Source: Terramyces sp. JEL0728 (lineage: Eukaryota > Chytridiomycota > Chytridiomycetes > Rhizophydiales > Terramycetaceae). From it: a stretch of DNA of 64,000 nucleotides. Positions 238-64,000 of the stretch are shown one piece after another. The position numbers and the translations under genes are program-made. The notes under the pieces were generated by a model. The model was not told where the DNA came from. It searched no databases and saw nothing but the letters and a program-made list of their open reading frames with translations. The stretch lies in NCBI GenBank assembly GCA_027603945.1, contig JADIIU010000053.1, positions 1 through 64,000 on the forward strand. The letters are read 5' to 3'. Positions within the stretch are counted from its first letter, which is position 1; every line of letters starts with the position of its first letter.

Positions 238-3200
238 ATGTCCACGAAATCACCAAAGAACCCCAAAATATTAATTCTGGAGCAGGAGATCGACAAAAAC
301 CGGATATTAAAGAATTACCAAGAGCTGCAGGAGAATGTCGCCAAGTATCATCGAAAATATTACACACAAGGGTCTGTATTAGGATACGTCGCTCTCGCAG
401 AAGTAGCTTACAGCGAGCCAGATATTGCGTACGACGACGATGTTATATTACCAAGCGAGCCAATATTCTTGGATAAAGTACATGCAAATCTACAAAAAGC
501 ACTATCCTGCGCTCCCGATGCTTCAACAAACGGAATAGCGATGCTCGTATTTTATTATTAACATAGCAATGTCAAATCTGGTTGGCATATATTGACTACT
601 TGAACCGCGAACAAGCTTCGGCCTATGGAATTATCAAAGACTGTGATTTAACACCATTAAAGGATTTACCAGCGACTGATTCAATCGTACCGACAACGCA
701 ACTAATGTACTATACAGTCAGCGGTAACTTTTATTTGATAGACAGCGTTGATTTACCATGCTTTGAACGAAAAGGAGTTGGGGTTTAAAATCCTAGAAGA
801 AGCTGCGGAATACATTTCAAAGTTGACTTTAGGAGGGCCAAATTCAAAAATGCTGAATTATTGGAGTGAAAAGTGTCTTCATTTATTTGTAGTAAAGTTG
901 CTGAATAGATCGTAAATTTGTCTAATGGTAGATATTATGACCGGGCATTTCAGATCACTTTGTTGTACTTGGAGAAACTCAATCCAAAGCTGGAACCAAC
1001 GCCATCTCTCAAAGCGATATCTTTGCTCTATCATCATATAGAAATATTGATCAGGAAGCTGGATGAACCCCAGCCATTTGCTGGAATTCCATTATTTAAC
1101 ATATACAAAAGATCACTTCTAGGACCAGGCAAAGATGCGCATATTAAGCAAATCAAAAGCTGGCTCCCCTTGTATGAAAGGCTAGTTACCAGTCTTTGTC
1201 CATTTCCAAAAGGCGAAAACCAAGACGCTGTTTCAATCGCGCGACACAAGCGTGTACTGATAGCTTTTGATTGGTATGTCCATATTGAAATGTGCCAAGC
1301 GCATCTGTACGATAATGGTATTGGCGATGTCGTCGATAAACAGTACAAATTGCTGGAGGTAGTTTGATTATAACCTAGATGTTGTATAGAGGAACCACGC
1401 ATTCATTCCATGCACTCAACTTAATGCGGTATATTTGCCACACCTTCTTCATGTTAATTTACAACTTTGGAGACAAGGTGTGCAGAGACGAAAAAATGGA
1501 AGCGCTTAACGCTGTTCAAGCGTATATCTTCCACTGGGAAAAGCAGTTTACACTCGAACTGGATATAAGGACAAAAGAGCAGCGTGATAAATCAGCAAAG
1601 AATTCTACCATTCAAAAACCATATCTTTCGCATAGATTGTCAGGACAGATTACTCAGCTTCCAGAATTTGCTAGTCCAGCGTTTGCTCCAAATCTGGCAG
1701 ATATTGTTGATCAATCTCTAGAAGAATTGGACCTCCCCCGAATCAGTATGGCCAACTTGGGAGACATTCCAGCAAAGAGGACAAAATCTAAAAGAGACTC
1801 TTCTCTAAATATGGAGACACTGATCGTAATTCCCGAGGTAGACGGCGAAACTGTGCCTGATGTTATTGGAGTATTGATCACAGGAATCAGGTTGATTTTG
1901 CATACCCATGACGGAGATATAGCATTGGTACTGTTGATTTAATTCAAGTTGAAACAAGCCCAAGCATACGGAGAAAAGGCATTTATTATAATTACCGAGC
2001 ATGGCTCACATCTTCCAAATTATTCGTTATTGTTAAGTCGAATATTCCAATGGCTTGGAATAGTGTATGGAGAATTAGCTCTGGATGTAATTGGAAGAGA
2101 AGATCGGCAAGACTATCAAACCGAAGCTGTTTTAATATTGAAAAAAGCCAAGGAGCTCGACAAAAATAACTCTAGAATCCGATTCCAATTGGCGTTGCAA
2201 CTTGCTGAAATAGGAGAGGTAGCTTTAGTTTCATTTAGTTTGGGCAAGCAATCGATGAGATTAATCAGTCTTTGAATTTATCCCCACACTCTCCAGGGCC
2301 ATACAATTTGCTGGCTCTGCTGTTAAGTTCGAAGGAGCATTATGATAAGGCACTAGAGGTGGCAAATGCCGGATGGAAAAGTTGTATGAAGGAACATTCA
2401 TTGGTGGTGGCTGGAGATAAAGGCGAACAAGATCTACTAGTAGACTGGGATTCTGTCGACATACACTTTAAAGAAGAAATTCTAAAGTAAATAATACTAA
2501 TGTAGCTTACGACTGACGCAGTTATCCTTGGAAATGGAACTTTATCCGCCAGAAGTGGTTTTGGAACATTTGCAAAAGACATTTGCATTAGTTCGAAGAA
2601 TGTCTGGCATTGCCCCCGAACAAAAGAAAGATGAGCCTATTACCATGCTAGGACGTCATCAAAGCGTTACTGGACGCCATTCCACACTGCCTGAAAGGAG
2701 AGGATCACATAACCCTTCTCCAGAACGTCTTGGGTCAGTGACACTCTCTAAATCCTACTCTGTCAGCAACATTTCAGTATTCAGAGGACATGTGATGTAT
2801 GAAGTGCAGATCAGTCTTTGGCTCTCGGTGTCTGCAGTATATCGAACTTTGCAACAATTTGAAAGCGCTGCAAATGCAATAGAAGAAGCAGAAAAGATCC
2901 TAACTGCTTTTAGTAATGCTCAACATAAAATAATGTCACAAACCAGCCGGCTATACAAAGATTCTGACTTGGTTCCTGAAGGTCCTGGTTTAGGACGGCC
3001 ACGTCAAGATAGTTTTGGCAGCAACCCTACAAAGCTTTTAACTCAACTAAATAATGTATATTGGAACGATAAGAACACCAAACTAGCGAAATACCAGGCT
3101 GATGTTGGGCTTGAGGTATGTTTTACTAATGAAAGAAAGCTTTTTTACTTTATGATACCTACAACGCACAGGCTATCCCTAAACCAATTGAAAAATACAT

Positions 3201-3801
3201 TAAATATCTCTCGCCAATCGCCAGAGTCGAATTTGAAAGAAGATCGCTTCAAAGACAGCAACAGCGAAACTACCCCCGATTCACCTCGGTTCAATCAGCA
3301 GATTCTATTTCCATTTCCAACACATTAATGACCGAGAGTGGAACCAATAATGTTGAGATTAGCGACGAAGTAGCTTCAAATGAAATCAGGCATGTGCATT
3401 CGCCTGAACAGGCGCTATTGGAAGAAAAGAATGAACTGACATTGCGACAAGTCATAGATGCTGCGCAATTTGCTCTTTTATTTGATTCCCAGAACTTGCC
3501 TGCTAGGACTTTTCTTGGCTATTTACTAAAGCAGCAGAAAGACTACAGCGAAAGTGAACATCATTTGCAAAAAGCATGTACACAACAGAGACACAGAGCC
3601 TCGTCTAGTGGAAAAAGTGGAGGCTCGTCTATTTACGGAGGTGCAACTTCCAAGTGGGGATGGAACGCTTGGAAATTGCTTGCAGAGCTGCTGAAAGAGC
3701 AAGGCCGTACTACAGACGCCGAAAAAGCAGCACTATATGCCGTAGAATTGGAAGGGGTATCTTGTCTGAGAGGCTATGAATGCATTGAGAGATTCAAATA
3801 A
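238..3801 (+). CDS. TPR protein of the TTC7/YPP1 family (PI4-kinase complex scaffold)
   Basis: Nine exons joined by eight introns of 19-22 nt (for example 547-566, 724-745 and 912-931) give one continuous frame of 1,133 residues from the ATG at 238. The middle carries helical repeats such as GPYNLLALLLSSKEHYDKAL. The C-terminus carries TPR-like repeats around RTFLGYLLKQQKDYSESEHH and WNAWKLLAELLKEQGRTTDA. The LLALLLSS...ALEV segment and the C-terminal TPR layout resemble TTC7/YPP1. In other eukaryotes that family, with EFR3, anchors PI4-kinase III-alpha at the plasma membrane. The protein is longer than human TTC7 or yeast Ypp1. Between the two halves is a Ser-rich linker (about residues 770-830). 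Family assignment is by pattern only; a general TPR protein is the alternative. Confidence 0.7.
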
Positions 3802-3853
3802 GTTTTTATTACAAAAATAAAGCAAACACGCTCATTTCAGATATTTTTGTAAT

Positions 3854-62688: not shown

Positions 62689-62697
62689 AATCCATCT

Positions 62698-64000
62698 TTA
62701 TAAATCTTGTCTGAGTGTTTCCCACCTCTTGAATGTATATCCGATGAACGCCAAGTTCTTGTTTGGATTGCGATATAGATCCATCGTCGCAGGCCCAATT
62801 TCAGTTTCTTCTTTGGGCGGCGATATTTGTGGTGGAATACCTTTGACATCTTCAACAGAAAAGTACGAGGTGTCTGTAATTGAAACCAGGTTAGGTACAA
62901 ATGGAGCGGGGTAATTGCGCAATTGATCCCAGTCTATGTTTCTAAAGTAAGGATGTCTGATCAGTTGTTCGTATCCAAGTCGATCTGCTGCGTCACAAAG
63001 CAAACTATAATTAAAGCCGATTACCCTTGAAGTAGATCTTCAGCCTCTTCCGACAATACAACACTTTCCGGTATAAATAGAGTATGTCTCCAATTGATAA
63101 TCTTCTGGTAAGTCTCATGAGGATTGTCAGATGCAAACGGCGGATATCCAACCAAGCATTCAAACATTATAGCGCCTAGGGACCACCAATCGCATTCTTT
63201 TGAGTAGCCGCTTTGCGCAAACACTTGGATTAAATCAAAATACCTTCTGGAGCGATATAATCTGGAGTTCCAACTGTCGAATAAGCCAATGCTCTTCTAT
63301 TCTTTTTCCAGGTAGCGATAGATTCCTCTCTAGAGTTAATCCAAAGAACCTTGAAAGGGTCAAATCAATATTATTCTTTGGCGCTTCATCTTCGTAGGGT
63401 AGTTGTCCCGTCATTTTGAATCTTTGGTAGTAGCTTGAGTCGTGGGTTTTGTGAAATCCTGTAGACAATCCAAAGTCAGATAGCTTTATGTGCCCATCCC
63501 GGTCAATTAATACTAAGTTAGTCAAGCTATACGGTTATCAGGTTTGATATCTCGGTGAACGTAACCCAATTCATGCACCTAAAATCAAAGAAAAATACAG
63601 CGTTGATTGCGCTCAAACACTCTGCCATGTAAAATTTGGTGATTTGTTCATTGAATTTGTCGTATTTGATAAGCATGGACATTAAATCGCCTCCTGGCAA
63701 AAATTCCATTATTAAATACAAATTCAATGCGTCCTGGAAAGAGTAGAATAGCTGAACCACCCATGCAGTTTTGGTAGATTGTGAAAGCAAATCCCTTTCA
63801 GCTTTAACATGCGCCATCTACATCAAAAATGCTTACTTGATCCTTGCTAATCATTGCCGATTTACGGAGCGACTTCATAGCATATATTTTTCCACTGTCT
63901 TTCTTTTGGACTAATCTAACCTAATATTGGCAAGGAGTTCACCTCTCCGTAAGCTCCCCTTCCTATAACCTGAATTGTATGGAAATCCTCCACCCCTAAT
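62698..64000 (-). CDS. NDR/LATS-family protein kinase (CBK1/ORB6 type), 5' end outside the window
   Basis: The gene runs from the right edge of the window (codons for GRGAYGE, the glycine loop) to a stop at 62698. At least seven introns of 19-22 nt are used. The kinase core has YAMKSL (ATP lysine), [31 protein letters not shown], an activation-segment insert typical of NDR kinases, [12 protein letters not shown] and [20 protein letters not shown]. The C-terminal hydrophobic motif is FIGYTFKRW. Together with CDC14, it points to a MEN/RAM-type morphogenesis or cytokinesis pathway. The first part of the protein, including any MOB-binding region, is outside. Confidence 0.92.

Follow-up and report, generated by a model that had tools for sequence, protein, structure and literature searches.

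The window considered here, bases 1–64000 of contig 53 of the Terramyces sp. JEL0728 assembly (15.0 Mb, 231 contigs), holds 36 gene models, of which 32 are interrupted by introns. Between 238 and 63950, 146 introns were called by the trained model, 139 of them at 18–26 nucleotides (nt) with a mode of 20 nt: 25 introns are 19 nt, 64 are 20 nt, 31 are 21 nt and 14 are 22 nt long, two each measure 23 and 24 nt, one measures 25 nt and seven lie outside 18–26 nt. The gene finder works on both strands, with a phased Markov model of coding sequence and a Viterbi path in which introns are jumps, and its training set was the window together with twenty stretches of 10 kb taken from other contigs. The intron calls rest on genomic DNA and protein comparison. 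A preceding sequence-only reading of the window had proposed about 140 introns of mostly 19–24 nt, a range into which 138 of the 146 fall, and the six introns which it had cited are present at the coordinates it gave and were all called exactly by the final model. Two of these, of 20 and 22 nt (547–566 and 724–745, forward strand), interrupt a gene in which TPR repeats were found and which we take to be TTC7-like; a third, of 21 nt (8101–8121, forward), lies in a helicase-like gene, presumably of the DEAD-box type; a fourth, of 24 nt (18750–18773, forward), would introduce an in-frame stop if retained in an 83-residue gene at 18725–19000, which we take, as the earlier reading did, to encode ACBP; the other two belong to genes with conserved relatives described below. 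The protein lengths cited before, 218 residues for CHMP5, 267 for RSPH9 and 83 for ACBP, were reproduced throughout.

In eight conserved genes, encoding trehalose-6-phosphate synthase/phosphatase (TPS/TPP), SMC4, a leucine-rich-repeat (LRR) protein, CDC14, bystin, centrin, cysteine dioxygenase and RSPH9, the splice junctions were tested against homologous proteins, and most proved gap-free in sequence alignment to relatives. An automatic rule counted a junction as passing when, in some relative, no alignment gap lay within 8 residues of it and identity reached at least 50%. The forward-strand TPS/TPP gene, with eight introns of 20–21 nt (15191–15210, 15352–15372, 15499–15518, 15884–15903, 16211–16231, 16330–16349, 16530–16549, the fifth of the cited introns, and 17009–17028), aligns over 98–100% of its length with the proteins of four chytrids, Kappamyces, Globomyces, Gorgonomyces and Batrachochytrium, and all eight junctions pass, gap-free. 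In SMC4, on the reverse strand, the six introns of 19–22 nt are, in gene order, 33918–33936 (19 nt), 33105–33126 (22 nt), 31180–31199 (20 nt), 30869–30887, 30503–30521 (the sixth cited intron) and 30271–30289 (19 nt each); four of the six junctions pass, an insertion in a different row of the alignment makes the remaining two fail, and by eye all six are gap-free against Boothiomyces macroporosus. The LRR gene (41693–47529, forward) contains 20 introns, 17 of whose junctions are gap-free and 15 of which satisfy the full automatic rule; among the five that fail, two are gap-free but divergent, one lies in a divergent, gapped region, one has an acceptor misplaced by 3 nt and one falls where relatives carry an insert or gap. 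A call of 25 nt at 45830 was replaced by one of 22 nt (45830–45851), which the public gene model and Boothiomyces sp. JEL0866 both back.

Comparisons by eye with solved structures gave a similar picture for the remaining genes. In the CDC14-like gene (forward; 37915–37934, 38102–38121 and 38772–38791 of 20 nt, 38240–38258 of 19 nt, 38955–38977 of 23 nt) five of six junctions fall within the aligned stretch and all five are gap-free, as are both junctions of centrin (forward; 34471–34489, 19 nt, and 34682–34702, 21 nt) and of cysteine dioxygenase (reverse; 48996–49017, 22 nt, and 49188–49207, 20 nt). For bystin (reverse; 60678–60698, 60962–60980 and 61164–61185, of 21, 19 and 22 nt) three of four junctions are gap-free and the fourth lies in a gapped, low-complexity part. 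Two of the three RSPH9 junctions (reverse; 4185–4204 and 4015–4034, 20 nt each) are gap-free, the third belonging to a GC-AG intron of 24 nt at 4477–4500. Here the first gene finder had placed an intron of 117 nt, which removed conserved residues; once GC donors were allowed, the 24-nt intron restored them, and it is needed for the 267 residues of the earlier RSPH9 model, which was correct.

Few calls depart from the short class. A 44-nt intron with a GTAAGT donor (24605–24648, forward) lies in a tandem of genes which we take to be GST/eEF1B-gamma-like and is one of the longer minority; the call actually made there, 24605–24690 (86 nt), looks wrong, its proper end being 24648. Two further calls also look wrong, 18493–18718 (226 nt), which joins the 83-residue gene to its neighbour, and 25242–25465 (224 nt), which seems to bridge tandem GST-like copies. 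Those at 11507–11616 (110 nt), 12821–12960 (140 nt), 52215–52230 (16 nt) and 53116–53176 (61 nt) are unconfirmed.

The census was extended to 264 kb over 21 contigs, that is 1.8% of the assembly, and returned 441 introns, 414 of 18–26 nt and 395 of 19–22 nt. Single lengths peak at 20 nt (190 introns), flanked by 19 nt (93), 21 nt (77) and 22 nt (35), with one intron of 16 nt, three of 18, seven of 23, five of 24, three of 25 and one of 26 nt; the other 26 are longer than 26 nt. Coding sequence (CDS) makes up 207 of the 264 kb, so that the density is about 2.1 introns per kb of CDS; complete genes have a mean of 2.8 introns, and 27 of 137 have none. Where the phase is known, 169 introns are in phase 0, 116 in phase 1 and 98 in phase 2, and retention would cause a frameshift or stop in 363 of these 383. 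Tiny introns occur in 19 of the 20 additional stretches; the twentieth, intron-free by the calls (L010:1–10000), encodes several low-complexity, secreted-looking proteins and has an open reading frame that, by eye, presumably resembles siroheme synthase. Scaling 414 introns per 264 kb to 15.0 Mb, about 20,000–23,500 introns of 18–26 nt are expected genome-wide, the lower figure applying if 16% of the calls are false. The earlier statement that such introns are found throughout the genome is thus backed by the 19 stretches and by the consensus count given below, and its genome-wide wording is an extrapolation because the sample covers only 264 kb; its description of near-uniform introns of about 20 nt is borne out.

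Two controls address the peak itself. With a flat prior, which gave every length of 12–300 nt the same weight and demanded no more than GT and AG, 135 GT-AG introns were called, 64 of them at 17–26 nt and 34 at exactly 20 nt, as against just 13–22 introns at 17–26 nt for six control pairs of dinucleotides. With lengths restricted to 13–60 nt, the trained model found 411 introns of 18–26 nt, whereas decoy readings of it, reversed, complemented or reverse-complemented, found 64, 63 and 64; the scores were 7409 for the real model, 4173–4269 for the decoys and 3756 for an intron-free reading. In the whole assembly the pattern GTAANN{6,9}YTAAYN{2,4}AG has 2670 matches, 2.5-fold the 1062 obtained when it is read backwards, and is on its own far from specific because the reversed control matches that often.

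The introns share a tight internal layout. All but three of the 441, which begin with GC, begin with GT, termini that are imposed by the caller, although control termini and decoys give no peak. At the donor of short introns the last exon base is G in 50%, position +3 is A in 91% (GTA), +4 is A in 53%, +5 is T in 44% and G in only 19%, and +6 is T in 51%; the 26 called introns longer than 26 nt, several of them doubtful, have G at +5 in 35%. The interior is T-rich, and the closing AG is preceded by T in 64% or C in 23%. A branch motif resembling YTAAY or YTGAY, most frequently TTAAT, CTAAT, TTAAC or CTAAC, was found in 313 of the 414 short introns, with the branch A at position 14 or 15 in 253 and separated from AG by 3 or 4 nt in 254 of the 313, so that the A mostly stands 5–6 nt before the last base; the prevalent layouts place it at 14 in introns of 19 nt, at 14 or 15 in those of 20 nt, at 15 in those of 21 nt and at 16 in those of 22 nt. 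Efficient U2AF-dependent splicing is reported to need at least eight pyrimidines (PMC8363638), for which there is no space because usually just 3–4 nt lie between the branch A and AG. Stops are contained in 61 of 81 introns of length 3n compared with 175 of 302 others, a difference to be read with the caution that the caller may miss stop-free 3n introns. We take the U12-type donor consensus to be RTATCCTT, which the donors do not match, being GTAATT-like with C at +5 in 16% and at +6 in 21%. By their sequence these introns appear to be of the U2-type spliceosomal kind and built on a rigid ruler, with a GTA start, a branch A at 14–15 and an end 5–6 nt further on. At L020:5760–5803, a called 44-nt intron can be read as two adjoining GT..AG units, of 23 and 21 nt, that leave no exonic sequence between them.

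These segments are very probably nuclear U2-type spliceosomal introns of Terramyces which have shrunk to near the steric minimum, at 19–22 nt. Each would be recognised as one unit, by intron definition, its length itself forming part of the recognition signal, and the 3′ splice site would be the first AG beyond the branch point, independent of a U2AF-bound pyrimidine tract. In so compact a genome (15 Mb), a bias towards deletion may have driven the introns to this floor, where selection for spliceability would halt further shrinkage; deletion bias set against a steric floor is the argument that has been made for mikrocytids (PMC10245619). Several observations weigh against the assignment. L010 is without any called intron, up to about 16% of the calls could be false (64/411, a rough upper bound), and 101 of the 414 short introns have no branch motif above threshold. 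The public annotation, moreover, corrected one of the 20 LRR introns called here and disagrees at three of the six SMC4 introns, always losing residues that relatives keep, and of the four spliceosomal small nuclear RNAs (snRNAs) searched for in the 15-Mb assembly U2 was the sole positive, U1, U4 and U6 not being recognised.

The public gene models also bear on the host, which had been called fungus-like but belongs to the true fungi (Chytridiomycota, Rhizophydiales, Terramycetaceae). Apart from three mis-annotated junctions, SMC4 equals the Terramyces sp. JEL0728 protein HDV01_005908 in GenBank, and the LRR protein equals HDV01_005914 except at one junction, so that from these two proteins the host was judged to be this strain or a genomic twin of it; the RSPH9 and centrin genes of the window fit a fungus with flagellated zoospores. 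Judged by its protein, HDV01_005914 agrees with the present calls at 19 of its 20 introns and has the better acceptor at the remaining one. The public SMC4 model, on the other hand, reads through the intron at 30271–30289, of which VADLN is the translation, omits GEKTLSSLAL, which relatives retain, at 30503–30521, and has Y instead of SEKQD at 30869–30887. Across the 26 tiny introns of the two genes compared, the public proteins are therefore wrong at three, each of 19 nt and each in SMC4. For TPS/TPP, no protein named Terramyces or Boothiomyces is among the 120 matches listed of 6413, which suggests broken public gene models. Tiny introns are thus partly in the public annotation already, the structure being implicit in the database, and no paper remarking on them was found.

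Proteins of the sister genus Boothiomyces carry inserts at two of these positions. Where Terramyces has the phase 1 intron 30869–30887, SMC4 of Boothiomyces sp. JEL0866 is longer by seven residues, CKFKTYL; these can be the translation of a retained 21-nt GT..AG segment in the exact phase, whose removal gives the serine that Terramyces and B. macroporosus have. Where the LRR gene has its 20-nt phase 0 intron 47264–47283 (forward), B. macroporosus and Boothiomyces sp. JEL0838 both show VILTNVK, again equivalent to 21 nt and able to carry GT..AG ends. Random heptapeptides meet the same constraints in 0.3% of cases at the first site and 1.5% at the second. Judged from the proteins, the inserts have the appearance of 21-nt introns that were retained at orthologous positions, and therefore the second genus, Boothiomyces, probably has tiny introns as well. 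Compatible with the preferred explanation is the more far-reaching proposal that shrinkage is old and common to much of the Rhizophydiales, this genome being one of many, which we consider a serious possibility at somewhat less than even chances. The orthologous Boothiomyces inserts speak for it, as might the related parasite Rhizophydium megarrhizum, which has a genome of 15.4 Mb and, in one metagenome-assembled genome, a completeness of 40.5% at the protein level versus 76.9% at the genome level, a gap for which its authors blame fragmented genes (PMC13391722). Low protein-level completeness is what one would expect where gene finders overlook tiny introns, and that these are its cause in R. 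megarrhizum is a guess.

As to the splicing machinery, a canonical U2 snRNA with GUGUAGUA was found at L024:1501–1693 with 140 bits. The U1 and U4 models gave zero matches in the assembly. Two sub-threshold U6 matches (27 bits) were rejected, as they represent one duplicated 3-kb segment (98.9% identical) which lacks the conserved U6 core. In the assembly ATACTTACCTGG has no exact occurrence, ATACTTACCT has 14 sites compared with 65 for its reverse, none of which resembles U1 by eye or in Rfam, and neither U6 core patterns with up to three mismatches, one of them with a gap of 6–36 nt, nor a 3′ piece of U6 with up to two mismatches gave anything credible. The control genomes of these searches were prokaryotic, so that their sensitivity for chytrid snRNAs is unsettled and the negative results do not amount to absence. 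The simplest reason for the failure to recognise U1, U4 and U6 is an assembly gap or weak search sensitivity, although divergent or intron-split snRNA genes may also be involved. That U1 has been altered to match the GTAATT donors was set aside because Stentor pairs T-rich donors with a conserved U1 (PMC9505925). More radically, the spliceosome may have been remodelled, intron shrinkage to a ruler of 14–15 plus 5–6 nt being accompanied by a canonical U2, by the failure to recognise a canonical U1 5′ end, a canonical U6 core or any U4 in the assembly, and by a donor that has lost the G at +5; we hold this to be improbable. Were the absence of U1, U4 and U6 true, the choice of 5′ splice sites would be unusual and would lean on length and U2 pairing instead of U1 and a pyrimidine tract, and the snRNAs would be divergent, or U6 itself interrupted by tiny introns. 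Two splicing-factor-like genes stand head-to-head in the window, 17 bases apart, at 39599–40913, one with HCNGP/SAP30BP (PF07818) and the other with DUF1168 (PF06658), which we take to be PRKRIP1; in the SAP30BP-like gene no C-terminal ULM-like tryptophan motif, by what we assume to be its consensus, was seen.

A different proposal is that the mRNA keeps the segments and that ribosomes pass over them, through translational bypassing or programmed frameshifting. In favour of it can be said that the analysis had genomic DNA only and that spliced and bypassed products would yield the same protein. The GT..AG ends, the branch motif and their spacing, which together give 411 calls as opposed to 63–64 for decoys, are, however, signals of the spliceosome that are meaningless to a ribosome; the Boothiomyces inserts match the same ends and a U2 snRNA is present, and bypassing is accordingly very unlikely. 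We give as little credit to the proposal that the sharp peak was made by the intron model or by pattern seeking and that the true introns are of ordinary fungal length. The intron lengths of the trained model were indeed learned, 26 of 441 introns exceed 26 nt and at least one intron of 44 nt looks real, but the flat 12–300 nt prior yields the same peak, homologues fix the tested junctions, and longer introns would delete conserved residues, as the 117-nt error in RSPH9 did. Assembly or sequencing indels mimicking frameshifts, conceivable in a draft of 231 contigs, are the least probable cause of all, as errors are not expected to take the form of 19–22 nt inserts with fixed motifs (411 versus 64 decoys), at two positions of which sister-genus proteins carry inserts.

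Among known short-intron systems, introns of 15–16 nt are reported for heterotrichs, 16–17 nt for mikrocytids and 18–21 nt for chlorarachniophyte nucleomorphs (PMC10245619; for the last also PMC5014332), and of about 25 nt for Paramecium (PMC5014332, PMC10245619); from the comparable genomes listed in the sequence-only reading the mikrocytids were omitted (PMC10245619). With the nucleomorphs Terramyces shares the length class, the narrow range and a gene-dense genome (PMC10245619, PMC5014332), but a nucleomorph is what remains of an endosymbiont's nucleus and has a little over 800 introns, whereas Terramyces has a 15-Mb fungal genome with an extrapolated number of at least 20,000. As in Stentor (15–16 nt), a GTA donor is followed by T-rich positions and the branch A stands five nt ahead of the last base, at position 10 of 15 in Stentor; in Terramyces it stands at 14–15, with a 5′ side about 4 nt longer, and YTAAY is clear, while the Stentor introns are described as having no strong branch consensus (PMC9505925). 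Mikrocytids (16–17 nt) likewise have tiny, near-uniform introns but are, unlike Terramyces, parasites, with 224 introns and a much reduced spliceosome (PMC10245619). Paramecium resembles Terramyces, whose count is extrapolated, in having tens of thousands of ultrashort introns (PMC5014332, PMC10245619), but these are longer, and the depletion and stop-richness of 3n introns described there is merely hinted at in Terramyces. In a survey of 644 fungal genomes, Cryptococcus neoformans, with a mean intron of 63 bp, is the example of a short mean, and the two Chytridiomycota in its reconstruction have 3.9 introns per kb (PMC8476143); compared with such ordinary fungal introns, those of Terramyces are alike in GT-AG and branch site, but are about one third as long and number about 2.1 per kb instead of 3.9 (PMC8476143).

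A fungal genome with introns of about 20 nt was not found among the titles and abstracts listed in the literature search, subscription journals lying mostly outside it, and Terramyces is, as far as this search reached, the first ultrashort-intron case in Fungi. Ultrashort introns had been described in ciliates, mikrocytids and nucleomorphs, to which a fungus is now added, and its introns of 19–22 nt, with their clear branch sites, bring the question of how small a spliced intron can be into range of comparison with well-studied fungal spliceosomes. With lengths near the shortest in any organism, Terramyces is a good test case for the minimum of RNA that the splicing machinery needs. Gene sets of fungi of the Terramyces and Boothiomyces type may be damaged where gene finders assume longer introns.

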